Below are positions 27,175 through 42,678 of a stretch of 64,000 nucleotides of DNA, in pieces. The DNA is from Actinomyces sp. oral taxon 414 (GTDB lineage Bacteria; Actinomycetota; Actinomycetes; Actinomycetales; Actinomycetaceae). Both the position numbers and the translations under genes were made by a program. The notes under the pieces were generated by a model. The model saw nothing but the letters and a program-made list of their open reading frames with translations. It was not told the DNA's origin and did not search any database. The DNA is taken from contig NZ_CP012590.1 in assembly GCF_001278845.1 (NCBI RefSeq), positions 3,410,001-3,474,000 of the forward strand, in the 5' to 3' direction. Within the stretch, counting starts at the first letter, position 1, and every line of letters starts with the position of its first letter.

Positions 27175-28368
27175 TCATAGCGCTTCTTGGGCGGACTGTT
27201 CGGCCACCCGCTCCTGAAGCGGTATGGTGAAAAGCGATATCCACCTGTTGTCCTTCCGCCTTGACATGAAGGATCCGCCCAGCAATTCGATCCGACGACG
27301 CACCCCTTTCAGTCCCAGCCCCGAGCTGAGCGCCGTATCCGCCGCCGGGGGGTCGCCATCGATCGAGTTGGTGATCAGGCATCGGAGCACGGCGGCATCG
27401 ATCTCCAGGAAAACCGTAACATCTCCGGGGGAGGAGACATACTTGACCGCATTGCCGATGAGCTCCTCGAAGATCCTGGCGGCCTGCTGACGCGTCCCCG
27501 CAATAATATCCTCCCCCGCAAGAATATCTATACCCTCCACCTGAATCCGACTCCCTCGTTCCTCGAGCGAGCGGCGGGCCTCTTCGACAACCTCCTGAAC
27601 CGGTCGCGGCTCGGAAATACGGAGGGGGAGTCCTTCATCGCCATTGGATTCGCTGATCATGATCAGAGCCCTTCGCAGTTGTCCAACCGATCTGCGCACC
27701 TGGGTGATAATAGCGTCAAACTCGTGAACCGGAACCCCGTTGTCCGAGTGAGCGGTCTTCGCGTGCTGAGCGGCCATGACCGCATGGGTGAGATCCCGCA
27801 CCACGGTGTCGTGAAGCTCCGAAGTGATGAGACGGCGCTGACGCTCGAAGTTCTGCTCGCGTTGCCGCAGAAGGGAATCCGTCTGCTCACGATGGTAACG
27901 GATCGCTTCGCCGAGCACCATACAGGGCGATCCCACTAATACGGGCCAAGTTAAAGCAATGATCCAGGTGGAATCATATAATCCGAGCAGCAGCACTGCG
28001 CAGGAGAATGAGTACACCACATAACGGGGCAGGCCGCGAGTCAGGAGAATCGCAGCCACGACCCAGCAGGCGGACGGAGCGATCGCACCCACATCATACG
28101 GAACGACTTGCGCACCCCACGTGACAATGAAACTCGCGATCGCACCGGCAATCGGCAGGAAGGAGGTGAGGGGGAGGCACACCAGGGCGAGTGCGGTCGC
28201 AATGACCGCGGGCGCCTCCCGCGGAGTCGACGTGCTGGTGAATGAGATGAAGCCCAGGAACAGGGCGATGCCGACGTGCAGCAGGTGCGTACGACGAGTC
28301 GGCGCCCATGTCTCGAAGGCGCTGGCGCGGGAAGCGACGTGGAAACGGTTGAGGAGGTTGAGGAACAT
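27175..28368 (-). CDS. NarL-type sensor histidine kinase (HisKA_3)
   Basis: A 397-residue kinase with five or six membrane helices in the first 150 residues and almost no external sensor loops. HisKA_3 dimerisation segment: RRLITSELHDTVVRDLTHAV, His is the phosphorylation site. The HATPase domain shows IFEELIGNAVKYV and GLGLKGVRRRIELLGG. The start is uncertain; ATG 28368 is favoured, and ATG 28413 or 28455 would add a non-hydrophobic tail. It is divergent from its likely partner regulator at 28640 and sits next to the defensin operon. Confidence 0.85.
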   Translation of the reverse strand: MFLNLLNRFHVASRASAFETWAPTRRTHLLHVGIALFLGFISFTSTSTPREAPAVIATALALVCLPLTSFLPIAGAIASFIVTWGAQVVPYDVGAIAPSACWVVAAILLTRGLPRYVVYSFSCAVLLLGLYDSTWIIALTWPVLVGSPCMVLGEAIRYHREQTDSLLRQREQNFERQRRLITSELHDTVVRDLTHAVMAAQHAKTAHSDNGVPVHEFDAIITQVRRSVGQLRRALIMISESNGDEGLPLRISEPRPVQEVVEEARRSLEERGSRIQVEGIDILAGEDIIAGTRQQAARIFEELIGNAVKYVSSPGDVTVFLEIDAAVLRCLITNSIDGDPPAADTALSSGLGLKGVRRRIELLGGSFMSRRKDNRWISLFTIPLQERVAEQSAQEAL

Positions 28369-28639
28369 GGCAGCGGCTCTCACTGAGAAGCGGCAGGGCG
28401 AGTGATGTCCCATCAGTGGGAACGACCCCGGCTTCTCGGGGCGGCCCCGCCTCACGGATCGGCCGACCGTCCCCGACGGTCAGTAGGGTACCCCAACCCA
28501 CCCGGAACGGTGAAGGTGGACCAAAGTCCCAAACGTCGCTGGGGAGCGACGTCTCACGCAGTCCCAACCAGGCCGAGATCAGATGACCGTCCCATCGTCC
28601 CCCTGCCCCCGCACAACCGGACTCGCTAGGATCATCCCC
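28369..28639. promoter_or_regulatory. Divergent promoter region of the kinase/regulator pair
   Basis: 271 bp between the divergent starts of the kinase (28368) and regulator (28640). It contains no convincing gene; the AGGA at 28628-28631 serves the regulator. Autoregulation by the LuxR-type regulator would place its sites here. No palindrome is obvious by eye. Confidence 0.4.
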
Positions 28640-29320
28640 ATGTCTCTCGATACCGACCTCCCCCCTGACGGAGCGGATGAGCACCCTATTCGCGTGTCCA
28701 TTGTCGACGACGATTCATTCGCCTTGCGCATGCTGAGATCCTACCTGGATTCCTCACCGCGGATCGAAGTGCTCAGCACGTTCACATCGGCTTCGGATGC
28801 GCTCCCGTTCCTCAGACGGATGCGGCATGACGTACTCATCACGGACATGCGCATGCCCGGCATGGACGGCCTCGAACTCCTCACCCGGGTGAAAAAGGAA
28901 TCACCCGAAGTCGCCGTGATCGTACTGACCTCGTTCGATGACGACTCCACAATGCTGAACGCCCTCGCACAGCACGCCAGCGGCTTCCTCCTCAAGGACG
29001 CCTCACCCGACGAGGTGGTCCGCGCCGTCATCGCCGCGCACAGGGGCGGGACCACGATCTCACCGACCTCCACCTCGCGTCTGATATCCCAGCATCTGCG
29101 CCCGCCGCGGAGCGGGGCCGGACCGGACCTGACCGAGACGGAGGAGAAAGTCCTGAGCCTGCTGTGCGACGGCCTGTCCAATGCCGATATAGCTAAATCA
29201 CTCACCATCTCGGAATCCACGGTCAAAGTCCACATGTCGCACCTTCTGAAGAAGTACGGGGCATCCTCCCGGCTCGAACTCGTCGTCATGGTCTATAAGC
29301 GAGAGGGTCCCCCCTCCTGA
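28640..29320 (+). CDS. NarL/LuxR-type response regulator
   Basis: A 226-residue regulator. Receiver domain with acidic pair (VSIVDDDSFALRML), phosphoacceptor Asp in DVLITDMRMPGMDG, Thr in VIVLTSFDDDS and Lys in FLLKDASPDEV. C-terminal LuxR helix-turn-helix: NADIAKSLTISESTVKVHMS. ATG 28640 is preferred over an in-frame ATG at 28583 because AGGAT precedes it and the receiver begins right after. It is convergent with the defensin operon and is the nearest candidate for its control. Confidence 0.9.
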   Translation: MSLDTDLPPDGADEHPIRVSIVDDDSFALRMLRSYLDSSPRIEVLSTFTSASDALPFLRRMRHDVLITDMRMPGMDGLELLTRVKKESPEVAVIVLTSFDDDSTMLNALAQHASGFLLKDASPDEVVRAVIAAHRGGTTISPTSTSRLISQHLRPPRSGAGPDLTETEEKVLSLLCDGLSNADIAKSLTISESTVKVHMSHLLKKYGASSRLELVVMVYKREGPPS

Positions 29321-29521: not shown

Positions 29522-30817
29522 TCACTCGCGCGGGAGCCTGAGCGCCCCGTGACCGTACCAGGTGTTCGTCCCCGTCGACGTCGTCGCGCAGGGGAGTTTC
29601 GCGTTCTCAGCGGGGCACTGGACGGGGGACGCGAGTGCCGTCAGCTCCTGCCCCACCCGACTGGGGGGCACGCCCCGGGCCAGAAGGATCGCGGCGGCGG
29701 CCGCCACCTGCGGGGCCGCGTACGATGTCCCGCTCTCGTACCAGTAGTACCGGCACAGATCGACGCCCTCGGAGCAGTCCGACTGGGTTCCGGGGGCCAG
29801 GGGGGTCCCGTCATCGGCGAGCATCCCGAAATCTCTAAGGAGCTCTGCGGGGACTGTTGTGAGTATGGCGGAATCGAGGCCGTGGGGAGCATTGCCCTGG
29901 TCGTACCAGACGGGCTCGCCGCCGGGGGCCGCGATGTCAATGGCGGTTCCGACGTTCGAGTAGTCGGCGCGGACGCCGGACGCGTCCAGCGACCCGACCG
30001 TGATGACGTGCTCCGACTGCGCCGGCAGAGTGACGCAGCTGCCGTCGACGCTCCGCCCCCTGCTTCTCGCATGGCCCGCGCTGTAACCGTCCGTCGTGCC
30101 GCCGTCGAGGTCGTAGCTCTCGTTCCCGGCCGCCGCGACCATGACCACGCCCCTGTCGGAGGCGTACTGCAGGGCCGACTCGACCTTCGCGCGATCCTCC
30201 CGCTGCCGGGCCCGCTCCTCATCGGTGTCCCCCGGGGCGTTGTCGCAGTAGCGGAACCACGGATCGACCGTGAAGCTCATGACGAGGACGTCCAGGCCGG
30301 CGTCGGCGCCGTACCGGATCGCCCGGCTGACCGCGTCGGCGGAGAAGTAGCCGGAGGCGTCGCCGGCCTTCAGGCTGACAAGGTCCGCGCCGGGCGCCGC
30401 CCCGCCAATGCCGTGACCGTCGAGCGCCGCCGCGATAATGCCCGCGACCGCGGTGCCGTGACCGAGCAGGTCGCGGCCGGGATCGGTGCAGTACGGGTCC
30501 CGGCTGCACCGGTCCTCGACGAACGAGCGGCTGAGGGCGGCGTCGTAGGCGTCATCCAGGTCGGGATGGGTGGAGTCGATCCCGGTGTCAATGACCCCCA
30601 CGACTGCTCCCCTCCCGTCCCCCGACGAGGTGCCGCCCTCCTTCCAGGACAGGTACCACTGCTGCGGCCCGAGGGGGTCCGAGCCCGGGGACGGGTCGGC
30701 GGCCGAGGCCGTCGGGGGCGCGAGGATCGTCAGAGCCAGCGCGAGCACGACCGCGACGACCGCGCGACTCGCCCGTCCGCGGGCGGTCCCGGGGCCCTCA
30801 GGACCCCACATCCTCAC
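29522..30817 (-). CDS. Secreted subtilisin-like (S8) serine protease, last gene of the defensin operon
   Basis: A 431-residue protease with a signal peptide (RAVVAVVLALALTILAPPTA, cleavage after ASA) and an intact catalytic triad: Asp in VVGVIDTGIDSTHPDL, His in LLGHGTAVAGII, Ser in YESGTSYAAPQVAA, with oxyanion Asn in VAAAGNESYD. Several Cys residues suggest disulfides. No C-terminal membrane anchor, unlike mycosins. GTG 30817 overlaps the preceding stop as GTGA; ATG 30811 is also possible. Placed in the operon, it is a good candidate to remove the defensin leader outside the cell. Confidence 0.88.
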   Translation of the reverse strand: MRMWGPEGPGTARGRASRAVVAVVLALALTILAPPTASAADPSPGSDPLGPQQWYLSWKEGGTSSGDGRGAVVGVIDTGIDSTHPDLDDAYDAALSRSFVEDRCSRDPYCTDPGRDLLGHGTAVAGIIAAALDGHGIGGAAPGADLVSLKAGDASGYFSADAVSRAIRYGADAGLDVLVMSFTVDPWFRYCDNAPGDTDEERARQREDRAKVESALQYASDRGVVMVAAAGNESYDLDGGTTDGYSAGHARSRGRSVDGSCVTLPAQSEHVITVGSLDASGVRADYSNVGTAIDIAAPGGEPVWYDQGNAPHGLDSAILTTVPAELLRDFGMLADDGTPLAPGTQSDCSEGVDLCRYYWYESGTSYAAPQVAAAAAILLARGVPPSRVGQELTALASPVQCPAENAKLPCATTSTGTNTWYGHGALRLPRE

Positions 30818-31200
30818 CACCGCGCCACCTCCTCGTAGAGCTGGCGCACGGGCGCCGTCGTCAGCAGAACCGAGCCGTTGTGCTCGACCCAGGACAGGAA
30901 ACCCGCCTCCTCGCCGTAGGGCGCCCGCTCCCTGCCGACGACCAGGTCGACGCAGTGCCCCCGGCGCCGGGCGGCCAGGACAATGGCGGCGTCCTTCTCC
31001 ACATCGCCGGTGAGGGCGCCCCCCTCCTTGGCCAGCAGACCGCGCAGCTGAAGCAGCACGGCCTCGACCTGCTCGTCGGACTCCCGGACGTCCGGTTCCA
31101 CTCGGCGCGGAAGCCACTCGTCCATCCCTCCCTCGCGGGAGGACAGGACGGTTCGCACCGATTTCCTGAGGTCGCTGCGCATGGAACGGCTCATGATCAT
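30814..31200 (-). CDS. Lasso B2-like (transglutaminase-fold) protein, apparently degenerate
   Basis: A 128-residue protein. Its C-terminal half, AAIVLAARRRGHCVDLVVG then GFLSWVEHNGSVLL, aligns by eye with the LLRRRG...AHAWVE core of lasso-peptide B2 leader peptidases. The catalytic Cys that normally precedes the Arg-rich helix is absent (Gly-Asp-Val at that place) and the His of the HAWVE motif is Ser. A structural or leader-binding role is more likely than proteolysis. ATG 31200 overlaps the preceding stop as ATGA. The family call is inference. Confidence 0.5.
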   Translation of the reverse strand: MIMSRSMRSDLRKSVRTVLSSREGGMDEWLPRRVEPDVRESDEQVEAVLLQLRGLLAKEGGALTGDVEKDAAIVLAARRRGHCVDLVVGRERAPYGEEAGFLSWVEHNGSVLLTTAPVRQLYEEVARW

Positions 31201-33224
31201 GTCCCTTCTGTCTGGGTGGAGTCGGAGCGGCAGGAGGATCGCGAGCGCATCCACTCGTCCTCGAGGTCGCGGCGCTCCAGGATCGCCCGCCGCGACTCGA
31301 ATGAATGCCCCTCACCGGGGAACACGGCCAATGTGGCGTCCGCATCGCACAGGGCGAGGTTCTCATAGAGGGTCAGCGACTGCTGCGGCGTCGTGGCGGA
31401 GTTCTCGTCGGAATCCCCGCACGTGATCAGGAACGGGATCCCCCGATGCGCATGGGCCTCGGGGAGAACGGTCATGGCGCTGTACAGGTCGGGGGCGGAG
31501 GCCACGGTGCGATTGTCGTGCTCGAATCCCCCCGGCGTGGTGTACCTGTCATACGCTCCGCTCCGCAGCAGCACCCCGGTCGGCGAGGCCGCGCGGCGGA
31601 GCGCGGCCACGGCGGCCAGCGCCGCCCCGAAGCTGTGCCCGCCGAGGAAGGGCGCGGCGGACGACTCCGGAAGCTCCTCGGCGATGACGCCCAGAGCGGC
31701 GTCCCACGCCCGGCGCAGTTGCGCGAGGAGCTCCTCGACGTCCGCGTGCGACAGCGCCTCGTAATCGATGCCGACCCGCACCACCGGGCGCGAGGCCGCG
31801 TGGCACCACTCGACACCGCCGGGGCAGCGGGATCCGAGGTCGACGCCGGCCAATCCGATGAGTTGAATCGGCAGCGTCCGGGAGGAATCGAACCAGACCA
31901 GCGGGACGGCGCCCAGCACCGACTCGGTGAGGACGAGTTCGACGACATGCCCCGAAAGAACCCGGGTGGCGGTGAAGGCGGATCGCCCGGAGACGGGGTC
32001 GTCCGCCGTCGGGCACCAGAGGACGCGGTCCCGGGGGCAGGGCGCATCGGCGGCGGGATCGGAATCGGGATCGGGCTCGGGGCCGGGGTCGGGGGGAATC
32101 TCGGTGAGGGGGACCGGCGCGGGACCGGCGGCGGTCATGACCTCGACGCCGCCCGCGCCGTTACCGGGGCGAAGGCCCTCAATGACGCCGTCGGCCTCCC
32201 ACGAGCCGCCCTCCCACCGCAGGAGGCGCGGCCGTCCGCGCTCCACCCACGCGCCGCTCCGGCCGGGCACGCCCGTGTAGTGATCGACGCCGTCGTCGAC
32301 GACGGCGATAACCGATCCGTCCTCGACCGCGTAGGAGGTGGTCCTGTCCGCCAGCCGCTCGGTGTACACCGGCGTGGAGCGCCCATCGAGCACCCGGTTG
32401 GCGACCGAGCCCCGTGGAAGGTCGCCCACCGTCGAGACCCGCGGTGGGGCCTGCGCACCGGCCGGGGCGAGCAGGTGGTGGGCGACGTGGTCCTCGCGGA
32501 GGAAGGCGGCGAGTTCCTCCGGCGTCGCCGCCAGGCCGACGATGAGCGACTCCCCCGCGTCGAGGTGGACGACGGCGCCGGGGGGCAGGCCGGGAACGGG
32601 CGCGTCATCGAGCATGAGGGTGCACAGGGCGGAGAAGAAGAGGTCCTCCACCAGGGCCCGCGGCCACGGCTCGGCGTCGTCGCGGCGCAGGGGGACGGTG
32701 TGGCGGTGCCCGTGCTCCTGGCGGAGCCACACCGCGCGGTCTCCGAGCGACCACAGGCGAGCGCCTTCAAGGGCACTCGGTCGGAGTCCGAGCAGGGACC
32801 GCGTGCTCGTCCCCCACCGCGTCCGGTCAGCACCGGCCTCCCGGCACGAGTCGACGGCGACGCGGCCGTCGTCGTCCACATGGGCGAAGGCCCAGCCGCG
32901 CGCTCCGCGGGGAACGGGCGGGCCGGCGGCGCGATCCGTAAGGAGCGCGGGTTCCCCGGCCTCGACAACCCCCAGGTATCCGCACGGCACCATGGAGGGG
33001 ACGGTGTCGCCGCCGAGGCGGTCGTAGGCGACTGCCCGGTACCTGAGCAGGTCCATGCGGGCCCGGGGGAAGGTGCGGTGGGCGGGTGCCTCGAGCACGG
33101 CCCGCGCACCGCTGCCGGGGTGCACAAGCGTACGGATATGTACAGCGTTCAGGCCGCTTCGCAGCCGCCGGGGCGAAGGGTCCGCCGCCGGGGCCTCCCG
33201 GATTGTCCGGAGTTCTTGCGTCAT
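31197..33224 (-). CDS. S9 prolyl-oligopeptidase-like alpha/beta hydrolase of the defensin operon
   Basis: A 675-residue cytoplasmic protein (no signal peptide). A long N-terminal domain with repeated beta-rich segments (EDGSVIAVVDDGVD, RPRLLRWEGGSW) precedes a hydrolase domain from about residue 450. Nucleophile elbow AAPFLGGHSFGAALAA (Ser near 532), acidic loop TCGDSDENS, and catalytic His in FPGEGHSFESR: the triad looks complete. S9 relatives include oligopeptidases and lasso isopeptidases. It could trim or degrade the precursor. Coupled on both sides by 4-bp overlaps. Confidence 0.75.
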   Translation of the reverse strand: MTQELRTIREAPAADPSPRRLRSGLNAVHIRTLVHPGSGARAVLEAPAHRTFPRARMDLLRYRAVAYDRLGGDTVPSMVPCGYLGVVEAGEPALLTDRAAGPPVPRGARGWAFAHVDDDGRVAVDSCREAGADRTRWGTSTRSLLGLRPSALEGARLWSLGDRAVWLRQEHGHRHTVPLRRDDAEPWPRALVEDLFFSALCTLMLDDAPVPGLPPGAVVHLDAGESLIVGLAATPEELAAFLREDHVAHHLLAPAGAQAPPRVSTVGDLPRGSVANRVLDGRSTPVYTERLADRTTSYAVEDGSVIAVVDDGVDHYTGVPGRSGAWVERGRPRLLRWEGGSWEADGVIEGLRPGNGAGGVEVMTAAGPAPVPLTEIPPDPGPEPDPDSDPAADAPCPRDRVLWCPTADDPVSGRSAFTATRVLSGHVVELVLTESVLGAVPLVWFDSSRTLPIQLIGLAGVDLGSRCPGGVEWCHAASRPVVRVGIDYEALSHADVEELLAQLRRAWDAALGVIAEELPESSAAPFLGGHSFGAALAAVAALRRAASPTGVLLRSGAYDRYTTPGGFEHDNRTVASAPDLYSAMTVLPEAHAHRGIPFLITCGDSDENSATTPQQSLTLYENLALCDADATLAVFPGEGHSFESRRAILERRDLEDEWMRSRSSCRSDSTQTEGT

Positions 33225-35014
33225 GATGGCCGTCCTTCCGCCCCGGCCAGGGCGGGGGACCGGGGAGGGCGCGGCGACCGGAGGAATCGGGAGGAGCGGA
33301 GGGAGCGCATGGGCGTGAGCCGGCCGTCCTCCATGCGATAGCTGCGGTCAATGACCGGGATGAGTCGTGCGTCATGGGTCGTGAGCACAATACAGTGGTC
33401 GCGCCGCAGGTCGTTCAGAATCGCAATGAGCCGATCGGACGACTCGTCGTCGAGCGCGGCGGTGGGCTCGTCGAAAAGGAGGACGCACGGGTCGAGGGCG
33501 AGCATGCGCGCGATCGCCAGGCGGGCGCGCTCCCCGCCGCTGATGCGCATGCCGTGCTCGCCGAGCATGGTGCTCGTCCCCGAGCGCTCCCCGAGCTGCG
33601 ACAGATCGAGGCCCACCCTCTCGCAGAGCTCCTCGACCCGGGCCTCGTCGATGCCCGGTCTGACGAGCTCGAAGTTCTCCAGCAGAGTCCCGGAGCGGAA
33701 GAAGGCGTCCTGGGGGCAGAGCTGGACGATTCCGTTCCACGTCGCCGTGCCGGTGTCGGCGGGGGATATTCCGCCGAAGGTGATGCGGCCCCCCGTGGGG
33801 CGGTTCGCCCCCGCGATGAGGCTGAGCAGGGTCGATTTCCCGGAGCCGGACGGGCCCACGACGGCGACGATCTCCCCGGAGCGGGCGGTGAGGTTGACCG
33901 AATGGAGCAGCGTGGCCTCGCCCGTCTGGGAGGGAACCCTGTAGTCGACGTCCCGGACGATGAGCGCCCCGCCGATGAGGATGTCGGCGGGCACGCGCGG
34001 CTGCTCGTACCACTCCTCGTCCGACTCGAGGAACTCGTGGACCCGGGACAGCGCCGCCCAGGACGTGGCCAGGCCCGTGCGCATGCCCGAGGCGCCCAGG
34101 AGCGGCTCGTAGAGCTGGGGGGCCAGGGCGGCGAGGGCCGCCAGGGCGCCCACCGTCATCCTCCCCTCGATGACGTAGTACCCGCCGACGACGAGGATGA
34201 CGACGGTTCCCAGCGCCCCGATGAGGCTCAACGAGGAGGAGAAGATGCTGTTGACGGTGATCATGCGGGTGTAGGAGCGGCTGACCTCGGCGGCCGTCCG
34301 CTCCGCACGGCGCTGGTCCGAGGCGATGTCCGCGGCCGTGCGAGAGAAGAGGTGGCCGGTCACGCCGACGCGCTCGACGACGGTGCCGCTGAAGTCGGAC
34401 ATGGCTTCGAGCATGCGGTCGGTGGCCGCATTGAGACGCCGGGAGACTTTCTCGGTGGGCAGGACGAGGAGCAGGGCGAGGCCCAGCACGGTCAGGGTGA
34501 TGACGTAGGACCGGGTCCACATGACGCCGACGAGGACGCCCAGGCGGACGACGAGCCCGAAGCTCTGAGGCAGGACGCTCGAGACGAAGGACTGGGCCTG
34601 CCCGGTGTCATTGGTGATGCGCGAGAGCATGGCGCCGCCCGGAGCGGAGCCGACGGCGGACGACGGGAGTCGGGTGAGCTTGCCGAGCATGAGAACCCGG
34701 AGTCGCTCCTGGAAGCGCTGGCCGGTAGAGACGGTCATCTGCTGCACCGCCACGCCGACCGCCGCACCGGCGAGGGCTGCCGCCGCGGCCAGGAGACCCG
34801 GGATGACAATGGCCGACGTCGAGGCTCCGGGCCCCGCGCCGTCGATAATGCGCTGGAGCATGAGCGGCGAGACGGCGGTCAGGCCAGCCTGCGCGGCGTA
34901 CAGGAGGGAGACGACGACAATAGCGGGGGCCGTGGCGCGCAGCGCCCGTCCGGTGCTGGACGGCAGGAGGCTGCGCACCGTCATGGCCGGGGGACGAGGC
35001 GACGGGTCCGCCAT
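33221..35014 (-). CDS. ABC exporter (fused membrane and ATPase domains) for the defensin
   Basis: A 597-residue half-transporter. Six membrane helices lie in residues about 30-320 (SLLYAAQAGLTAVSPLMLQR opens TM1). ATPase: Walker A VVGPSGSGKSTLLSL, signature RISGGERARLAIARM, Walker B CVLLFDEPTAALDD, and H-loop LTTHDARL. There is no N-terminal C39 peptidase, so leader removal must be done by another protein. ATG 35014 has GGAGG nine bases upstream; ATG 34984 would make an ATGA overlap with the previous stop. Homodimer expected, similar to lasso D transporters. Confidence 0.87.
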   Translation of the reverse strand: MADPSPRPPAMTVRSLLPSSTGRALRATAPAIVVVSLLYAAQAGLTAVSPLMLQRIIDGAGPGASTSAIVIPGLLAAAAALAGAAVGVAVQQMTVSTGQRFQERLRVLMLGKLTRLPSSAVGSAPGGAMLSRITNDTGQAQSFVSSVLPQSFGLVVRLGVLVGVMWTRSYVITLTVLGLALLLVLPTEKVSRRLNAATDRMLEAMSDFSGTVVERVGVTGHLFSRTAADIASDQRRAERTAAEVSRSYTRMITVNSIFSSSLSLIGALGTVVILVVGGYYVIEGRMTVGALAALAALAPQLYEPLLGASGMRTGLATSWAALSRVHEFLESDEEWYEQPRVPADILIGGALIVRDVDYRVPSQTGEATLLHSVNLTARSGEIVAVVGPSGSGKSTLLSLIAGANRPTGGRITFGGISPADTGTATWNGIVQLCPQDAFFRSGTLLENFELVRPGIDEARVEELCERVGLDLSQLGERSGTSTMLGEHGMRISGGERARLAIARMLALDPCVLLFDEPTAALDDESSDRLIAILNDLRRDHCIVLTTHDARLIPVIDRSYRMEDGRLTPMRSLRSSRFLRSPRPPRSPALAGAEGRPS

Positions 35015-35784
35015 GACTGGAGCACCTCCCTGCACTCGCGCAGTCCGGACTCGACCCGCGCGCCGGTCGGGTCGCCGGTGGCGACGGAGACGACGGCGGG
35101 GTAGCCGGAGATCTCGACGCCCGCCTCGCGCAGGGAGGCGGCCTGTGCGGAGTCGCGATCGACCCATTGGATGGCGCCATCCAGCTCGGCGTCGTTGACC
35201 TCGTGCTTCTCCATGATCTTGAGCGCGGAGCAGGCGCTGCAGGTCGGGGAGAGCACGACGAGGAGGCGGTCGTAGTCCTCGCCCTCGCCGGCCCGTGTCG
35301 CGTGCGCCGCGCGCCGGCTGCCCCACAGCTGCGCGGCGAGCACGATGGCCGCCGCCAGCAGGACGGCCAGGGCGATGCGCCCCGGGCGGGGCGCGGCCGC
35401 GCTGCCGCCCACCAGGGCGACCAGCGCGAGGAGCGCGGAGGCGAGGGCGCAGCCGCCGATGTGGACGGGGCCCACCGTCATGCCGTCAATGCCGAAGCAG
35501 CCGCACTCCTGCCCCCTGAGCGTCGTGGCTCCGACCACGAAGGCGGCGTAGACGAGGGCTAGGACGAGGCAGGCCGGGCGGGCGCTCGGCAGCGCGAGCG
35601 CAATGGCGGCGGTGACGATCTCGACGGCGATGACGAATCCGCTCGACAGGTGGAGGCGGAGGAAGTTGGCCCCCTGGGGCCAGGCCAGGCGCGTGTGCGC
35701 GGCGGCCTGGATCTTGGCGCCCGCGGTCCCCAGGAGAATTCCCGCGGACGCGCCGATGAGCAGGGTGATGAGCAGAGCTGTCAT
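34981..35784 (-). CDS. MauE/DoxX-like membrane protein fused to a thioredoxin-like domain
   Basis: A 267-residue protein with four or five helices (residues about 1-170) of the MauE type, carrying a Cys pair in ATTLRGQECGCFGIDG, followed by a thioredoxin-like domain with the redox motif SPTCSACSALKIM (about 179-187) and a cis-Pro-like ISGYPAVV. MauE proteins support disulfide formation in methylamine dehydrogenase. Here it probably oxidises the six-cysteine defensin at the membrane. AAGGAG eight bases upstream of ATG 35784. Confidence 0.8.
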   Translation of the reverse strand: MTALLITLLIGASAGILLGTAGAKIQAAAHTRLAWPQGANFLRLHLSSGFVIAVEIVTAAIALALPSARPACLVLALVYAAFVVGATTLRGQECGCFGIDGMTVGPVHIGGCALASALLALVALVGGSAAAPRPGRIALAVLLAAAIVLAAQLWGSRRAAHATRAGEGEDYDRLLVVLSPTCSACSALKIMEKHEVNDAELDGAIQWVDRDSAQAASLREAGVEISGYPAVVSVATGDPTGARVESGLRECREVLQSWRTRRLVPRP

Positions 35785-35796
35785 GGTTGCGTCTCC

Positions 35797-36069
35797 TTAC
35801 GTGTTCTCGTCGGTTTCGCCGTCGTGTTCCGGGCCGGGTGCGGGATCGGCCGTGGGGCCGACGAGCAGTCCGGCCTCCACGGCGGCCTGAAGGTCGGGGG
35901 AGGACGGGGGCGAGTCCTTCAGCGCGTGGTGGATGAGAGCGCCCTTGTCCTCGTCCAGTTCGTAGACGGATAGTCGGCGCAGGTCCGCTATCGTCCAGCC
36001 CCCGTTCTCCAGGTGCGTCAGGCTCAGTCCGTCAGCGAGCCGCCAGCGTCCAGCCACGATGTCACCCAC
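35797..36069 (-). CDS. PqqD-like / lasso B1-like RiPP recognition element protein
   Basis: A 90-residue protein. Its pattern LSLTHLENGGWTIADLRRLS, then VYELDEDKGALIHHAL and EAGLLVG, matches the three-strand, three-helix PqqD-type fold (strands, 'Y-x-L-N/D-x-x-G', helix, 'GLL'). Such domains bind the leader peptides of RiPP precursors. The C-terminal 18 residues are acidic and disordered. GTG 36069 overlaps the previous gene by 46 bp; GTG 36057 is an equally plausible start with GGTGGG upstream. The family call is inference. Confidence 0.6.
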   Translation of the reverse strand: MGDIVAGRWRLADGLSLTHLENGGWTIADLRRLSVYELDEDKGALIHHALKDSPPSSPDLQAAVEAGLLVGPTADPAPGPEHDGETDENT

Positions 36070-37178
36070 CTTTCCGTCTCAACGGTCCTCTTGATGTCGT
36101 AGGCGTACCTCTGCCGCAGGAACGGGTCCCGGCCGATGGCGGCCAGGCCCTCGGCGTTGATGAGCCCGCGCGCGGCGAGGGCGCCGTCGGCGAGCTCCTC
36201 CTGCCAGGCGTCCCAGGCCCCGGCGGCCTCGCGCACCGCCCGGAGCCGGGCGGCGGCGTGATCGTCAACGGGGTCCCGCCCGTAACGGCGGCACAGGACG
36301 GCGTCATGGGTGCGCACGCCGGGGCGGATCGCGGCCGCGCGCTCCTCGTAGGGCACGGCCGCGAAGGCGGCGATGACGTCGGGGTCGTGGGCGGGCCGGT
36401 AGGGGCCGCCGGGCGAGGCGGCGGAGTCGTCGGCCGCGGTCCACAGCAGCTGGCAGACCCGCGGCGGAAGTCCCCGGAGGGCCTCCTCCCAGGAGGAGAG
36501 CGAGACGATCCGGGCGACGTCGATCAGCTTAATGGCGTCAACGGCGAGCCACTGCGGGGCGGCCACGACCCGGTGCTCGGCATGAGCCGGATCCTCCGAC
36601 TGCCCGGGTCTTCCGCCCCTCCGCGCGAGGAGTCGGTGGAGGAACCCGTGCCGGGACTGTTCATCGGCGGCGCCCCCATCCGTGTTCCCACCTGCTTCGG
36701 CCTCGATGGCGCCCACGAGGTCGCGGAGCCCGCGGGCGTCAATGGGGGCGCCCGGGCCGGGCTCGGAGACCTGGTCCGAGTCATCGGATGAGGCGAGGTC
36801 CTCAAGGTAGCGGGTGATGATCTCATCAACGGGGAACGCCGGGAGGATGCCGCCAGCGGCGCCGTGCCGGAGCAGGGCCTCGGTGAGGATGCGCTCCGCC
36901 CGCTCAAGGCCGTGGGTCTCGGTGCGGTACCGCTCCGGCGCCAGGGGCGCAACAGTCCCGTTGGTCAGAGTCGTTCCGGGGACGTGGTGGAGCACGCCGG
37001 TGAAGAGGGACTGGCCCAGGGGCGGGCGGATGCCGCCTATGCGGGCGAGGACGAACATTATGTCGGCGGAGGTGTGCTCACTGGCGAGGGTCTTCTCGTC
37101 GATCGGGCTCCAGGCGCCGTCCTCTTCGCGCAGGAGCGTGCCCGCATCCGCCCAGGGGGGAGTATGATGAGTACTCAT
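36024..37178 (-). CDS. Degenerate asparagine-synthetase / lasso-cyclase-like protein
   Basis: A 384-residue protein. By eye, SLFTGVLHHVPGTTL (residues 57-71) matches the lasso-cyclase segment '(T)LYxGVRRLPPGHxL'. AERILTEALLRHGAAGG is followed by ILPAFPVDEIITRYL, exactly where the ATP-pyrophosphatase loop SGGLDS should be; here it reads AFPVDE. The C-terminal RGLINAEGLAAIGRDP and ETERWVTSW match cyclase C-termini. The nucleotide chemistry is therefore probably lost. It may serve as a scaffold or precursor chaperone. AGG nine bases upstream of ATG 37178. Confidence 0.6.
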   Translation of the reverse strand: MSTHHTPPWADAGTLLREEDGAWSPIDEKTLASEHTSADIMFVLARIGGIRPPLGQSLFTGVLHHVPGTTLTNGTVAPLAPERYRTETHGLERAERILTEALLRHGAAGGILPAFPVDEIITRYLEDLASSDDSDQVSEPGPGAPIDARGLRDLVGAIEAEAGGNTDGGAADEQSRHGFLHRLLARRGGRPGQSEDPAHAEHRVVAAPQWLAVDAIKLIDVARIVSLSSWEEALRGLPPRVCQLLWTAADDSAASPGGPYRPAHDPDVIAAFAAVPYEERAAAIRPGVRTHDAVLCRRYGRDPVDDHAAARLRAVREAAGAWDAWQEELADGALAARGLINAEGLAAIGRDPFLRQRYAYDIKRTVETERWVTSWLDAGGSLTD

Positions 37179-37216: not shown

Positions 37217-37264
37217 GGCTCCGGGCCCGTTCCGCGCCGTGGCAGCGGCACGGAACGGGCCCGG
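37217..37264 (-). terminator. Strong hairpin between the defensin gene and the rest of its operon
   Basis: A perfect 16-bp stem, CTCCGGGCCCGTTCCG (37217-37232) with CGGAACGGGCCCGGAG (37249-37264), with a 16-nt loop, starting 20 bp after the defensin stop. No U-tract follows on the minus strand. It probably acts as a partial terminator or 3' stabiliser, giving more defensin mRNA than processing-gene mRNA. Confidence 0.75.
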
Positions 37265-37283
37265 AGTGTTGCTACTCAGTCCG

Positions 37284-37487
37284 TCAGTAGCAGGTGCAGA
37301 CGATCCCCCACGCGCAGTAACCGCCCCGGTACCCGATGTACCGGCAGTGCTCCGTGCACTGGTAGTCGGAACTGAGGGGGCTGCAGCCGTAGCCCTCGGC
37401 GCCCTCGAGGGGGGCCCGGGTCTCGGAGTGGAGCGCCTGCGTGAAGCTGACGTCGGTCAGGTTGTTGCTGCGGCGGATGAACTTCAT
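37284..37487 (-). CDS. Actifensin-like bacterial defensin precursor (CS-alpha-beta peptide)
   Basis: A 67-residue precursor. Leader of about 31 residues (MKFIRRSNNLTDVSFTQALH...) has no hydrophobic Sec core. The core, residues 32-67, has six cysteines at 35, 44, 48, 58, 64 and 66: GYGC, DYQCTEHC, GYRGGYC and the terminal VCTCY. CxxxC, GxC and CxC spacing fits the cysteine-stabilised alpha-beta fold with expected pairs 35-58, 44-64 and 48-66. It strongly resembles fungal plectasin and actifensin of Actinomyces ruminicola, antibacterial peptides; plectasin binds lipid II. AAGGA eight bases upstream of ATG 37487. Cleavage after Glu31 is inferred. Confidence 0.93.
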   Translation of the reverse strand: MKFIRRSNNLTDVSFTQALHSETRAPLEGAEGYGCSPLSSDYQCTEHCRYIGYRGGYCAWGIVCTCY

Positions 37488-37508: not shown

Positions 37509-37578
37509 TCCCAGGCGGATCCCGCCTGGGATTGTGTGGTGTGCGGAGGTGTCCGCGCACCTTCCCCGAATGGGGAAG
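37509..37578 (-). promoter_or_regulatory. Two hairpins in the leader upstream of the defensin gene
   Basis: TCCCAGGCGG (37509-37518) pairs with CCGCCTGGGA (37522-37531), loop of 3. CTTCCCC (37561-37567) pairs with GGGGAAG (37572-37578), loop of 4. They fill the 110 bp between the ABC permease stop and the defensin ribosome site. They may terminate the upstream operon, protect the defensin transcript's 5' end, or attenuate read-through. No clear promoter is seen within the gap. Confidence 0.5.
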
Positions 37579-37597: not shown

Positions 37598-40075
37598 TCA
37601 GTCGGCGGCCAGGGCGGTGATGGGTGTGACGGCGGCGGCCCGGCCGGCGGGTCGCAGTGAGGCGGCGACGCCGATCAGGAGGGTGACGGCCAGGAGCCCG
37701 GCCAGGGGGAGCCAGGGGAGGGCGACTTCAATGCCGAAGTTGTTGCCCAGAGCAGCAAGTCCCACTTTGCCCAGTGCGGTTCCGACAATGATGCCCAGAA
37801 CCCCGCCGACAAGGGCCAGGAGGGCGGCCTCGGTGGTGATGAGGCGGCGGATCTGGGGGCGGGTGGTGCCGGTGGCGCGCAGGACTCCGATCTCACGGGT
37901 GCGCTCCAGGACGGAGATGTCGGTGGTGTTGGCCAAGCCGCTCAGGGAGATGACCAGGGCGGCGGCCATGACCAGGCAGACAGTGAGCACGGTGCGGTGA
38001 AGCAGATTCACGAATGCGTCGCGCCCCTGAGCACTTCCCACGACCATGAGCTCCTGGCCGCGGACGGCCTGGCGCACGGCGTCCTCGACGCCCTGGGAGG
38101 AGCCGTTCCCGGTGGTACGCACCCACATCATGGCGTCGGTGGGGGCGCCGCCGGTCAGGCGCTCGGCGGCGGCGGGAGTGATGACGGCGGCCGCAAAGTT
38201 ACTCCTCACCCGGGCGGTCAGGGTGGTGCTGCCGGCCGGTCCGGTGAGGGTGACGGGAGCGCCGTCGGGGATGTCATGGAGCGCGCCGACGATGAGGGTG
38301 TTGTTGTCCAGACCCTCGAATTCTTCGGTGGAGTGCACGACGGGGGCGATGGCGGCGGTGTCGATGGACAGGACGTCGATCGGCCTGGTCTTGCCGTCCA
38401 CGGTCTGGGTCAGGTCGAGGCTGGGGACGAGGACGGTGTCCTGCACGCCGTTGACGGCCCTGATGGTGGAGGTCAGGGCGGCGGCGTCGGTCTGCGGCGT
38501 CACCCCGAGGACCGTGATATCTATGGCTGACGAGTTCCGGTTCACAATGCTCTGGTAGGAGGAGGTGATGGAGAACAGGCCCACGAACAGGGTCGAGCCG
38601 ACCAGGGCGCATACGAACAGGGTGGCGGCGTTGGCCGCGGAGCGGCCGGGGTTGCGCTCCAGGTTGCGGGCGGCCAGGTGGAGGATCGGACGGCGCTCGG
38701 CGTCCCCGAGGCGTCCGATCAGGCCGACGGCGCCGCTCACCAGCAGAGACAGGGTCAGAAGGATCCCGAGGGCGACGACGACACCCCCTCCTGCCACCAG
38801 ATAGGGCTCTTGGCCGGTGGCGCCCATAACGGTGACAACGGTGCCGGCCAGGGCGATGACTGCTCCGGCGATGGCGGCCCATCGCCGGGCCCTGCCGGCC
38901 TGTTTGGCGCCGGTGGTCTGTCCGGTGATGGCCACCAGGGGTGAGACGCGGGAGGCGCGGCGGGCCGGGAGCAGGACGGCGATGAGGGTGACCAGGGTGC
39001 CCACGGCGATGGTGACGACCAGGGACAGGGGGGTGATGGTGAGCTGGTCGGCGTCCAGGTCCTCGATGACGCCGGAGCGCACAAGGAGCGCGGCGGCCCC
39101 GGCCCCGAGTCCGGCGCCGAGGACGGAGCCGATCACCCCGGTGAGGGCGGCGGTGCGCAGCACGGCGCCCATGACCTGGCGGCGGGTGGCGCCGATGCAG
39201 CGCAGCAGGCCGGTGGTGCGGGTCTGGCGGGCCACCAGGGCGGCGAAGGTGGTGGCGATGACGATGGCGGCCACCACTGCGCACACCGGGGCCAGCAGGT
39301 TCATGACCATGGTGATCATGGTGCCGCCCGACTGGGAGGCGGCGGCCCGCTGGGCCACGGCGGCATCGGCGTCCACCACGGAGGCGGCGGGCTGAACGGC
39401 GTGCACCACCCGCTCAACCTCGCTCACGAGGTCACCGGTGCTCACCCCCGGCTTGGCGTCCACGTACAGGCGGTAGTAGGCGGTGCTCGCCCCCATGGCG
39501 GCCAGCTGATCGACCGTGGCGTAAACGACGCTCAGGTTGTCGTCGAGGCCCGCGTCGGGGCCCGGGGAGACAATACCCACCACGGTCGGGCCGGTGCGGA
39601 TATCGCCACTCTCATTGTTCTTCAGGCGGATGACGTCCCCCACGCCGAGCTCCCACTTCTCGGCCAGGCTGGTGTCGATGGCCACCTCCCCGGCCCCCTG
39701 CGGCAGGCGCCCGGCCGTCAGAGTCGTGCGCTCACTGAGCGCGGGCACGTCCCGAACCACGATCGCACCCACGGCATTGGCCAGTTGTCTGGGCAAGTCG
39801 GAATAGATGATGTCCCAGTGTTCCCCGCGCACGGAGGCCACGCCGTCCAGGTCGGACAGCTGTGCGATGACGGCGTCGTCCAGGGGTCCGCCGCCCTCGG
39901 AGGGGCGGGCGGGCACGACGACGGCGTCGGCCCCGCCCAGGGACAGGCGGGCATCGGCCCGCATCCTGGTGGTGTAGGAGTCGGAGACGATGAAGGCGAA
40001 GGCGATCAGGGCCGCGCTCAGGGCCACCGCGATGAGGGCCGCGATGGTGCGGCGCACATCCAGCAGGGAGGGCAT
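37598..40075 (-). CDS. MacB/FtsX-type ABC transporter permease
   Basis: An 825-residue permease with two FtsX units. A first membrane helix (IAALIAVALSAALIAFAFIV), a large extracytoplasmic domain, three helices near 260-370 (AAIVIATTFAALVARQTRTT), a mid pair near 400-450, a second external domain, and three closing helices with NTTDISVLERTREIGVLRATG. The architecture fits ATP-driven mechanotransmission exporters such as MacB, BceB or LolCE types. It starts 1 bp after the ATPase stop. Position beside the defensin gene suggests self-protection, not proven. Confidence 0.88.
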   Translation of the reverse strand: MPSLLDVRRTIAALIAVALSAALIAFAFIVSDSYTTRMRADARLSLGGADAVVVPARPSEGGGPLDDAVIAQLSDLDGVASVRGEHWDIIYSDLPRQLANAVGAIVVRDVPALSERTTLTAGRLPQGAGEVAIDTSLAEKWELGVGDVIRLKNNESGDIRTGPTVVGIVSPGPDAGLDDNLSVVYATVDQLAAMGASTAYYRLYVDAKPGVSTGDLVSEVERVVHAVQPAASVVDADAAVAQRAAASQSGGTMITMVMNLLAPVCAVVAAIVIATTFAALVARQTRTTGLLRCIGATRRQVMGAVLRTAALTGVIGSVLGAGLGAGAAALLVRSGVIEDLDADQLTITPLSLVVTIAVGTLVTLIAVLLPARRASRVSPLVAITGQTTGAKQAGRARRWAAIAGAVIALAGTVVTVMGATGQEPYLVAGGGVVVALGILLTLSLLVSGAVGLIGRLGDAERRPILHLAARNLERNPGRSAANAATLFVCALVGSTLFVGLFSITSSYQSIVNRNSSAIDITVLGVTPQTDAAALTSTIRAVNGVQDTVLVPSLDLTQTVDGKTRPIDVLSIDTAAIAPVVHSTEEFEGLDNNTLIVGALHDIPDGAPVTLTGPAGSTTLTARVRSNFAAAVITPAAAERLTGGAPTDAMMWVRTTGNGSSQGVEDAVRQAVRGQELMVVGSAQGRDAFVNLLHRTVLTVCLVMAAALVISLSGLANTTDISVLERTREIGVLRATGTTRPQIRRLITTEAALLALVGGVLGIIVGTALGKVGLAALGNNFGIEVALPWLPLAGLLAVTLLIGVAASLRPAGRAAAVTPITALAAD

Positions 40076-40076
40076 G

Positions 40077-41249
40077 TCAGCGCACCCCCCTGGTCTGAAG
40101 GGGACCAGTCGTCCCGGCCGGGCGGGTCAAGGAGGCCGGGAAGTAGGAGGCGGCGACTGGGCGACCCGGCGCTGTGGTGTGGGTGGTACTGGGGGTGCGG
40201 GTGGGCCTGCGCACCGGCGCGCCAGTGCGGGTCGGCGGGGCAGGAACCAATCGCGCACTCGCACCTCCGTCCGGGCCGGCCGGCGGCTGGGTGGGGCGGC
40301 CTCCTCGGGTGGTGGGTCTGCGTGTGGGCACGGGGATAGTGGCCTGGAAGTCCCCGGTCGGGGCGGCGGGCGCGGTCGGAGGCACGGGCGCGGCAGTCGG
40401 GGCGCTGCGGTGGGCACCGTGGCGCGCGGCCGGGGCGGGACCACTGCCGGGCACGGCCGGGGGCTCCGGAGCAGGGCGGGTGCCGGCTGGGGTTGCGTGG
40501 TGGGCGGGTGCGCCGTGGTGGGTGGGGTTGTCGGTGGTGATGTGTCCGTCGCGCAGGCGGATAATGCGGTCGGTGGTGGCGGCGGCGTTCTCGTCGTGGG
40601 TGACCATGACCACGGTCTGACCCAGGTTGTGGCACATGCCCGCCAGAGCCTGAAGCAGTGAGGCGGCCGAGGCGGTGTCCAGGGCCCCGGTGGGCTCGTC
40701 GGCGAAGACCACCTCGGGGCGCCCGGCCAGGGCCCGGGCCACGGCCACCCTCTGCTGCTGACCGCCCGACAGCTGGTTGGGCCGGTGGTCGAGGCGGTCG
40801 GCGATACCCAGGGCGTTAATGACCGCCTCATACCACTGCTCGTCGGGCTTGCGGTGGGCCAGGCGCAGAGGCAGCAGAATGTTCTCCTTCGCACTCAGGG
40901 TGGGCAGGAGGTTGAAGGCCTGGAACACGAAGCCGAGCCTGTCGCGCCGCACGGCGGTCAACTGCTTGTCGCCCATGCCCGCCAGGTCCTGCCCCGCGAT
41001 GAGCACCGACCCCGAGGTGGGCGAGTCCAATCCGGCCAGGCAGTGCAGCAGAGTGGACTTGCCCGACCCCGACGGGCCCATAATGGCCACGAACTGGCCG
41101 CGCCCCACACTCAGACTCACCCCGCCCAGAGCCACCACCCGCGCCTCACCAGACCCATACACCCGCACCACATCACGCGCCTCCACAACAACATCAGCGC
41201 CACGAGTGGTCTGGGACCACTCGGCGGCAGTATCCGGAACACCGCTCAT
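40077..41249 (-). CDS. MacB/LolD-type ABC ATPase with Pro-rich tail
   Basis: A 390-residue protein. The ATPase (residues about 20-245) has Walker A IMGPSGSGKSTLLHCLAG, Q-loop FVFQAFNLLP, signature LSGGQQQRVAVARAL and Walker B VVFADEPTGALD, as in MacB/LolD. A C-terminal extension of about 145 residues is Pro/Thr/Arg-rich and disordered (TRRPTTRGGRPTQPP), which is unusual; the homologue at 55192-56499 has it too. It ends in LQTRGVR, 1 bp from the permease start. Confidence 0.9.
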   Translation of the reverse strand: MSGVPDTAAEWSQTTRGADVVVEARDVVRVYGSGEARVVALGGVSLSVGRGQFVAIMGPSGSGKSTLLHCLAGLDSPTSGSVLIAGQDLAGMGDKQLTAVRRDRLGFVFQAFNLLPTLSAKENILLPLRLAHRKPDEQWYEAVINALGIADRLDHRPNQLSGGQQQRVAVARALAGRPEVVFADEPTGALDTASAASLLQALAGMCHNLGQTVVMVTHDENAAATTDRIIRLRDGHITTDNPTHHGAPAHHATPAGTRPAPEPPAVPGSGPAPAARHGAHRSAPTAAPVPPTAPAAPTGDFQATIPVPTRRPTTRGGRPTQPPAGPDGGASARLVPAPPTRTGAPVRRPTRTPSTTHTTAPGRPVAASYFPASLTRPAGTTGPLQTRGVR

Positions 41250-41458: not shown

Positions 41459-42670
41459 ATGAGCGAGAACGGGTGGCCGAGGCCGGGCCGCGAGACGCTG
41501 CCCTGGACCTCGCGCATGGCCGAGTTCCTCACGCCCCGCCAGCGCGTCCTCCTCCCCTCCACCTACGAGGCCGCCGTCGTCCCCGAGATCGCCGACGCCG
41601 CCCTGACCCTCTCCACGCGCCTCGCCGCCGCCGAGGCCGACGCCGTCGCCGCGGTCTCGCGCTTCGACTCCGACGCCGCCAGCGCGCTCCTGCCGTTCAC
41701 ACCCCTGCTCCTGCGCAGCGAGTCCAGCGCCTCCTCGAGGATCGAACAACTCACCGTCTCCGCCCGCAGACTCATGGAGGCCGAGCTCTTCGGGGCGGGC
41801 CGCGGCAACGCCGCGCTCGTCGTCGCCAATACCCGGGCCATGACGGCCGCCGCCTCGATCCGCCCGCCGCTGAGCCTCGACTCCCTGCTGTCCATGCACC
41901 GCGCCCTCCTGGAGTCCAGCGCCCCCGACGACGCCGGGGCGCTGCGCCGCGAGCCCGTGTGGATCGGCGGATCCGAGCTCTCCCCCGCGGGCGCGCTCTT
42001 CGTCCCTCCCCGGCACGAACGGGTGCCCGAAGCGCTGGAGGACCTCTTCGCCTTCACCCGCCGCACGGATCTGCCGCCCCTGACCAGGACCGCCATCGCC
42101 CACGCCCACTTCGAGACGATCCACCCCTTCGTCGACGGCAACGGCCGCACGGGGCGCGCCCTCATCCACGTCCTGCTCTCCTGGGCGGGGCTGACCCCGC
42201 ACGCCCCGCTGCCCCTGTCCGCCGTGCTGCTCGCCGACGTCGACTCCTACTTCCGCTCCCTGGACGCCTACCGCCGCGGCGAGCCGCTCGTCATCGTCGA
42301 GCTCTTCATCGGGGCCGCGGCGCGGGCCGCAGCGCTCGGGCGCAGCGCGGGGCGACGGATCGGCCGGACCGTGGAGGCCATGCTCGAACGCTCCCCCGGG
42401 CGCGCGGGCACGCCGGACCGCGCCATTATTGAGCTGCTCGCCCGCCGACCGGTCCTCGACGCGGGTTCCGCGGCGACCGCCGTCGGGGTCTCCGAGGCCG
42501 CGGCGCGCCGCTCCCTGGAGCGGCTCGAAGCCGCCGGCCTGCTTCGCGGGTACCTCATCGGCCCGCACCGGAGGGCGTGGCGCAGTCCCGAGATCCTCGA
42601 TCTCATGGACGACGTCGCCTCCGCTCTGGGACGCCGGGCGCGACCCGGAACGCGCCGAGAAATGCCATAG
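41459..42670 (+). CDS. Fic-domain protein (probable AMP-transferase)
   Basis: A 403-residue protein. N-terminal inhibitory-type helix with RSESSASSRIEQLTVSARR, the Fic core motif AHAHFETIHPFVDGNGRTGR (catalytic His, Mg-binding Asp and P-loop Arg all present), and a C-terminal winged helix (GVSEAAARRSLERLEAAGLL). Fic proteins usually transfer AMP to a hydroxyl of a target protein, and this helix-containing class is self-restrained through the Ser...Glu motif. It starts 19 bp after a minus-strand intergenic region and is followed 8 bp later by a histidine kinase gene. Confidence 0.9.
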   Translation: MSENGWPRPGRETLPWTSRMAEFLTPRQRVLLPSTYEAAVVPEIADAALTLSTRLAAAEADAVAAVSRFDSDAASALLPFTPLLLRSESSASSRIEQLTVSARRLMEAELFGAGRGNAALVVANTRAMTAAASIRPPLSLDSLLSMHRALLESSAPDDAGALRREPVWIGGSELSPAGALFVPPRHERVPEALEDLFAFTRRTDLPPLTRTAIAHAHFETIHPFVDGNGRTGRALIHVLLSWAGLTPHAPLPLSAVLLADVDSYFRSLDAYRRGEPLVIVELFIGAAARAAALGRSAGRRIGRTVEAMLERSPGRAGTPDRAIIELLARRPVLDAGSAATAVGVSEAAARRSLERLEAAGLLRGYLIGPHRRAWRSPEILDLMDDVASALGRRARPGTRREMP

Positions 42671-42678
42671 TTGGGGCC

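Follow-up and report, generated by a model that had tools for sequence, protein, structure and literature searches.

Actifensin (AfnA) of Actinomyces ruminicola DPC 7226 is a bacteriocin of the defensin type. According to the accessible parts of the 2020 paper by Sugrue et al., it inhibits many Gram-positive bacteria, its N-terminus lies directly after GAE, and its mass of 4,091 corresponds to three disulfides and no other change (PMC6989792). These parts also describe the layout of the afn cluster, in which afnG-I were published as hypothetical genes. The GA motif was read as an ABC cleavage signal, and the proteases of the cluster were suggested to remove the extra Glu (PMC6989792). As far as the accessible text of a later study goes, actifensin binds both lipid I and lipid II, the latter with a Kd of 30 nM; the study produced it in Pichia from its mature sequence and picked the clone by inhibition zones (PMC12284004). 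Because Pichia made actifensin without the cluster proteins A and B, the activity of the final peptide does not require either of them.

CS-alpha-beta defensins have a helix-sheet fold with three disulfides, which connect cysteines 1-4, 2-5 and 3-6. The fungal defensin plectasin (PDB 1zfu) is such a CS-alpha-beta structure. Lasso peptide clusters encode an RRE (B1), a protease (B2), a cyclase (C), an exporter (D) and an S9 isopeptidase. Lasso peptides are isopeptide-bonded. Actifensin, the homologue of the peptide analysed here, is disulfide-bonded (PMC6989792). Actinomyces also has a defensin with a solved structure, Actinomycesin (AMSIN, PDB 2RU0) (PMC6989792).

The defensin gene and its peptide

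The window analysed here is the whole stretch of 64,000 nucleotides of DNA. Its defensin precursor gene (37284..37487, afnA-like) lies on the minus strand; read from 37487 to 37284, it opens with ATG and comprises exactly 67 codons before the stop. The 67 codons had been reported by the first-pass annotation, which gave no strand. No defensin peptide was found in the plus-strand reading of 37284-37487. The precursor comprises a 31-aa leader that ends in GAE, MKFIRRSNNLTDVSFTQALHSETRAPLEGAE, and a 36-aa core with six cysteines, GYGCSPLSSDYQCTEHCRYIGYRGGYCAWGIVCTCY, the cleavage point between them being placed by homology with actifensin. Core cysteines are at positions 4, 13, 17, 27, 33 and 35. 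This spacing (C4 x8 C13 x3 C17 x9 C27 x5 C33 x C35) fits the CS-alpha-beta pattern C-x(5-12)-C-x3-C-x(9-10)-C-x(4-5)-C-x-C, as given in the accessible text (PMC6989792). The 36-residue core and its six cysteines in CxxxC, GxC and CxC arrangement are thus as the first-pass annotation had described them. The leader is hydrophilic (GRAVY -0.60), which is consistent with the claimed lack of a Sec core, and carries the conserved pattern MxxFxRR...L......ETxxPxE. With three disulfides, the core has a calculated average mass of 4030.5 Da.

Searches against defensin models and structures, which had been proposed as a check, all gave matches. The actinodefensin model NF038042 matched residues 2-67 of the precursor with 98.1 bits and an E-value of 3.1e-28, 33 bits above its curated cut-off of 65. 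Pfam Defensin_2 scored 32.7 bits (cut-off 20.4), and a PDB search matched the precursor to plectasin chains (1zfu, E 7.6e-6). Actinomycesin 2RU0 aligned to precursor residues 32-67 as a weak match (E 0.19). One of the two outcomes that had been named as refuting the annotation, absence of a match to CS-alpha-beta defensins, did not occur. Judged from its sequence, it is near certain that 37284..37487 is a defensin gene of the actinodefensin type.

The core had been called nearly superimposable on actifensin and plectasin, a description that holds for sequence only. It has 22 identities over 36 core residues with plectasin and 13 to 21 with 22 other actinodefensins, some cores of this comparison being cut at an extra cysteine and hence longer than the true core. 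Going by alignment scores, L013, an actinodefensin, lies a little closer to the window core than plectasin does (118 versus 115). With actifensin, the window peptide shares the precursor layout, the junction between GAE and G, the six cysteines and the segment GYRGGYC. It differs from actifensin in its net neutral core, its C4-C5 loop of five residues and its N-loop, which has eight residues and starts with Ser-Pro. The C4-C5 loop has 7 or 8 residues in 22 other precursors. An N-loop of eight residues was also found in one of the 22, where the count in four copies with an extra cysteine begins at that cysteine. The window core also has a shifted Pro. In the accessible text, an eight-residue N-loop with Ser-Pro or Arg-Pro is noted for two strains (PMC6989792). 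At pH 7, the net charge of the window core is -0.2. Among ten cores including that of the window, which were collected with a stricter pattern, charge ranged from -0.2 to +4.9, and one other core also had -0.2. By the accessible part of another report, 80% of bacterial defensins are cationic (PMC8819291), so the potency of the net-neutral window peptide could be low.

Residues of plectasin that have been linked to lipid II binding, in the list available from the later study (PMC12284004), are largely kept. Plectasin F2, H18, K20, I22, Y25, K26, Y29 and Y40 align to Y, H, R, I, Y, R, Y and Y in the window core; only K23 falls at a gap, and the other listed residues are identical or conservative. 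Beyond the gap at Lys23, the window core differs from plectasin in having one Asp in place of the Asp-Glu-Asp-Asp patch. Furthermore, plectasin is a fungal product, whereas the window gene lies in a bacterial operon and encodes a hydrophilic leader. Since actifensin binds lipid II and the plectasin contact residues are kept, the window peptide is, by analogy, very probably a lipid II-binding bacteriocin.

The window's own genome, a single contig of 3.84 Mb, contains one defensin match. NF038042 was above its cut-off in 10 of 213 genomes of the family, all of one genus, and the same 10 have NF038043, the model of protein A, above its cut-off. Two or more defensin matches (E <= 0.001) were found in 8 of these 10 genomes. 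In a phylum-wide draw of 396 genomes, only the window's own genome had a defensin. The first-pass annotation considered bacterial defensins rare, which is overstated: 47 actifensin homologues in 19 strains had been published by 2020, according to the accessible text (PMC6989792), and another partly accessible report lists relatives in Corynebacterium and Micromonospora (PMC8819291). The window peptide is a single-copy, net-neutral addition to an already known kind, the actinodefensins. Partial or stop-bearing defensin matches were also observed beside intact copies in other genomes (G017:C1, G022:C7, G022:C11 and G024:C51), and the G017 copy carries TAA. These broken copies suggest birth and death of defensin copies.

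The surrounding cluster

Downstream of the defensin gene, the minus strand carries, in this order, the genes of protein A, protein B, a MauE-like protein, an ABC exporter, an S9-type protein, a small protein and a subtilase. Intergenic spaces from protein A to the subtilase are 12 bases or less; the genes of A and B overlap, as do those of the MauE-like protein and the exporter, and those of the exporter and the S9-type protein overlap by 4 bases. At the far end of the cluster lie a LuxR-type response regulator (28583..29320, plus strand, afnB position) and a divergent histidine kinase (27175..28455, minus strand), whose Pfam matches are just below cut-off. The associated proteins, ABC, alpha/beta hydrolase, subtilisin and LuxR gene follow the published order of the actifensin cluster, as set out in the accessible text (PMC6989792), in agreement with the operon context that had been claimed. 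The afn letters that we use for window genes are putative and follow from position. We identified no afnL counterpart; the next upstream genes encode a Fic protein and a two-component pair. By tblastn, A, B, the MauE-like protein, ABC, S9, the small protein and LuxR were collinear in 9 of 10 loci, with ABC, ATPase, LuxR and histidine kinase matches counted only from 100 bits, and the S8 gene was present in all 9 collinear loci. L051, a sub-threshold defensin match in another genus, had none of these neighbours among the tblastn matches listed. The S9 match is split over two frames in L045 and L047, and so is the ABC match of L047.

The leader had been expected to depend on the neighbouring exporter. 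An exporter gene is present (33221..35014, minus strand, afnF position), encoding fused transmembrane and ATPase domains by Pfam; the focus on the exporter, however, left out other neighbours of interest. No C39 peptidase domain was found among the exporter's Pfam matches, and an S8 or S9 enzyme would therefore be the likely leader peptidase. The S9/prolyl-oligopeptidase-type alpha/beta hydrolase (31197..33224, minus strand, afnE position) matches Pfam Peptidase_S9 with 31.9 bits (cut-off 22.6); a plant glutamyl endopeptidase is its top match in the PDB. GGHSFG, a G[DG][SD]D[EQ]N segment and EGH are present in 9 of 10 aligned frames, the tenth (L045) being a fragment. The subtilase (29522..30820, minus strand, afnC position) has an N-terminal hydrophobic segment and matches Peptidase_S8 with 150.4 bits; its best NCBIfam score, below cut-off, was that of mycosin. 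Between the two peptidase genes lies that of a small conserved protein of 126-128 aa (30814..31200, minus strand, afnD position), assigned by synteny.

MauE and MauD are needed for the disulfide-rich subunit of methylamine dehydrogenase. For this reason a disulfide role is considered for the MauE-like protein (34981..35784, minus strand, afnG position), in which a MauE-like part is followed by a part that bears CxxC. Pfam MauE scored 19.5 bits, below the cut-off of 27. The segments GQECGCFG and SPTCxACSAL are kept in 10 of 10 aligned MauE-like proteins, and CxxC is invariant in the same ten. Pfam matched no thioredoxin family in this protein; by eye, its C-terminal part appears thioredoxin-like. 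By analogy, it is a candidate disulfide catalyst.

Upstream of the defensin gene, the minus strand encodes an FtsX-type ABC permease (37598..40075, afnJ position, Pfam) and an ABC ATPase of the LolD/MacB type (40077..41249, afnK position, Pfam and NCBIfam). The permease is a candidate for self-immunity or efflux. L043, L045, L047, L048 and L049 each have another FtsX-type permease match, full or partial, beside their defensin genes. The gene of the ABC ATPase adjoins one on the plus strand (41459-42670) for a Fic/DOC-family protein that shows weak winged-helix matches towards the C-terminus. Beyond the upstream ABC genes is a second two-component pair, a histidine kinase and a LuxR-type regulator (42577-45116, plus strand), so that two-component pairs flank the defensin locus on both sides.

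In the gap that follows the defensin stop codon and precedes protein A, the minus strand contains a GC-rich hairpin (37219..37266); each of its two arms is 21 nt long, and a T-tract is absent. Of the 8 relatives examined, 7 have a hairpin here, as does the window; for the eighth (L047) only 35 bases were measured because the nearest defensin copy there is truncated, and L050 begins too late for this comparison. In an alignment of eight sequences, the hairpin shows covariation, 11 of 18 pairs being changed on both sides. Pairing was kept in 94.3% of cells, a figure that is favoured because the structure was derived from the same alignment, compared with 78.2% for shuffled sequences and at most 50.4% for slid structures. 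No Rfam family matched in the window. The hairpin probably acts as an mRNA stabiliser or as a partial terminator that limits read-through. The accessible text of the 2020 paper notes a terminator in afnE and mentions none at the gap between the defensin and A genes (PMC6989792). Just upstream of the defensin start, there is a perfect 10-bp inverted repeat, TCCCAGGCGG-N3-CCGCCTGGGA (37509..37531), which is possibly an operator or a 5' hairpin.

Proteins A and B compared with lasso peptide machinery

Actinodefensin-associated protein A (36024..37178, minus strand, afnI position) has 384 aa and matches NF038043 with 558.6 bits (cut-off 250). Sequence searches revealed no clear relative outside its own family. 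No link to Asn_synthase appeared in a Pfam scan of 29 members or in PDB profile searches, and a PF00733 search of the window's genome did not pick up protein A. By eye, A resembled the C-terminal part of asparagine synthetases, and it was therefore submitted to a profile-profile test. The alignment of A contained 28 of 94 homologues and the window's own sequence, and P0098, which looks frameshifted, was excluded. Compared by hhalign with 27 cyclase-like proteins, A gave Prob 91 and an E-value of 9.8e-7 over profile columns 203-377, near the C-terminal end of the cyclases; the E-value refers to a single pairwise comparison rather than to a library search, and it comes from one of six target sets with which A was compared. 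Reversed controls gave E-values of 0.53 and 0.63. As further controls, nine families that are unrelated but come from the same clusters gave 0.046-0.69 with this cyclase target; A itself gave 0.045-0.66 with ten other targets, namely these nine families and the RRE set. The 27 cyclases comprise 17 from 20 B2-bearing regions, 7 found near a PqqD match and 3 divergent PF00733 matches (L121-L123); five lack the exact ATP motif, and one is a 1290-aa frame. Four cyclases were scored in NCBIfam, and in each case the best score was one of two macrolactam/lasso cyclase models, below the curated cut-offs.

Other target sets gave higher E-values. These were 0.034 with 26 mostly AsnB-type proteins, 0.0021 with 11 proteins taken as lasso-type and 8.5e-4 with both, the first set including L076 and L078, which are also in the lasso-type set (L078 as L115). 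The corresponding reversed controls gave 0.23-0.85. Sets enlarged with further cyclase relatives, the larger without P0128, gave 2.0e-4 and 1.5e-4 (reversed 0.38-0.52). The N-terminal 156 residues of A alone aligned at a collinear place, before the ATP motif, with an E-value of 0.023 (reversed 0.45-0.48); across four target sets this match was weak, with 0.018-0.14. The AlphaFold model of A had a pLDDT of 46 and was unusable.

The SGGxDS ATP-binding motif is the PP-loop of the asparagine-synthetase/lasso-cyclase superfamily. SGGx[DN] occurs in 22 of the 27 cyclases, and in none of the 29 aligned A sequences and none of the 94 A homologues. Because the motif is absent from all 94 homologues and from the window copy, we read A as catalytically dead. 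Going by these profile comparisons, protein A is most likely a catalytically dead relative of lasso cyclases and asparagine synthetases.

Actinodefensin-associated protein B (35797..36069, minus strand, afnH position; 86-90 aa), whose start overlaps the end of A, matches NF038044 with 66.5 bits (cut-off 45). Neither a Pfam scan of 17 members nor PDB profile searches matched B to PqqD, and a PF05402 search of the window's genome did not pick it up. Compared with 46 distinct PqqD/RRE sequences, hhalign gave an E-value of 0.019 (controls 0.18 or worse); with 16 RREs from lasso loci only, the E-value was 0.10. A structure of B was modelled from 17 of 21 B homologues with the window's own sequence (the four others being P0101 and P0104, which were removed, and P0102 and P0103, which were unused), and the model was mediocre (pLDDT 66, pTM 0.45). 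In a Foldseek search of the PDB, none of 1487 matches reached an E-value of 0.001. The three with the lowest E-values were TbiB1 bound to a lasso leader, statistically weak at 0.07-0.19, with TM-scores of 0.28-0.44 and rmsd of 5.8-8.5. VIA-align placed WD40-type chains first and had no RRE among the 50 matches listed. From the hhalign and Foldseek comparisons, protein B is a candidate RRE, a PqqD-like leader-binding domain.

The defensin cluster resembles lasso clusters in that A is similar to the cyclase by profile and there are an ABC exporter and an S9-type hydrolase; B has a weak resemblance to an RRE. It is unlike them in that A lacks the ATP motif of the cyclase. The lasso B2 leader protease (PF13471) had no match in the window's genome; it is present in 58 of 246 genomes of the class (E <= 0.001). 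A literature search, which reached only a minority of subscription papers, found no publication on a lasso link of the defensin cluster.

A proposed maturation route and its alternatives

We lean towards a route in which a precursor of the actifensin type is matured by a scaffold derived from lasso machinery instead of being cyclised. The gene product would be the precursor of a CS-alpha-beta defensin bacteriocin of the actifensin type. Its conserved leader would be bound by the lasso-type RRE (B) and the dead lasso-cyclase-like protein (A), and A, which would no longer activate ATP, would serve as a scaffold or chaperone that presents the precursor. The precursor would then be handed to the ABC exporter, the three disulfides would be formed with the MauE/CxxC protein, and the leader would be cut by the S8 and/or S9 peptidase at the GAE/G junction. 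The resulting 36-residue peptide would bind lipid II of competing Gram-positive bacteria, and the upstream FtsX/ATPase pair would protect the producer. The hairpin would stabilise the defensin mRNA or limit read-through, yielding more precursor than enzyme. We infer the biochemical steps of A, B, the MauE-like protein and the peptidases, and likewise the activity of the window peptide. The broader claim, that the actinodefensin system is a RiPP-type pathway derived from lasso machinery in which disulfide knotting by the MauE/CxxC oxidase replaces macrolactam closure, stands in our estimate at even chances.

Alternatively, the locus may encode nothing more than an ordinary actifensin bacteriocin: A and B would be immunity or regulatory proteins without lasso ancestry, and the leader would simply be a double-glycine-like (GA) signal, cut by an ABC exporter or by an extracellular protease. 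We regard this as possible but rather doubtful. It agrees with the accessible text of Sugrue et al., where the GA motif is an ABC cleavage signal and afnG-I are hypothetical (PMC6989792), and with Pfam, where the main weak match of B, seen in 7 of 17 members with a best E-value of 0.065, is to the immunity family Imm53. Sequence searches, which gave no link between A and the cyclases, also speak for it; the hhalign match of A to the cyclases, with an E-value of about 1e-6 and clean controls, speaks against it. The best Foldseek matches of B, weak as they are, are lasso RREs, and cleavage by the exporter is at odds with its Pfam matches, in which there is no C39 peptidase domain.

Two further readings seem very unlikely to us. 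In one of them, A would have kept its activity as a ligase or amidotransferase and would modify the peptide, for instance in a transient way, or at a residue that did not show up in actifensin. In its favour, A is strongly conserved, with a mean column identity of 65%, and an invariant Val-Asp lies near the place of the ATP motif in an alignment of low confidence. That none of the 29 aligned sequences and none of the 94 homologues has SGGx[DN] argues against activity, as does the mass of actifensin, which three disulfides alone explain in the accessible text (PMC6989792). We give equally little credence to a decayed or silent locus with a single diverged neutral core. One copy here against two or more in 8 of 10 positive genomes, the core charge of -0.2, the shifted Pro and the C4-C5 loop of 5 instead of 7 or 8 residues would fit decay. 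The helper genes, however, are open frames in conserved order, the pairing of the hairpin is kept, and so are the contact residues of the plectasin type.

The defensin gene itself is of a known kind; what is new is the proposed lasso-like ancestry of the helpers, which would make follow-up worthwhile if confirmed. The window peptide offers a plectasin-like, net-neutral variant for structure-activity work in a small family of bacterial lipid II binders. Assignment of a leader-binding RRE, a dead cyclase and a disulfide catalyst would help bacterial production of these peptides and would link the biosynthesis of defensins with the lineage of lasso peptides. If the proposal is true, bacteria would have reached a eukaryote-like defensin with lasso tools.
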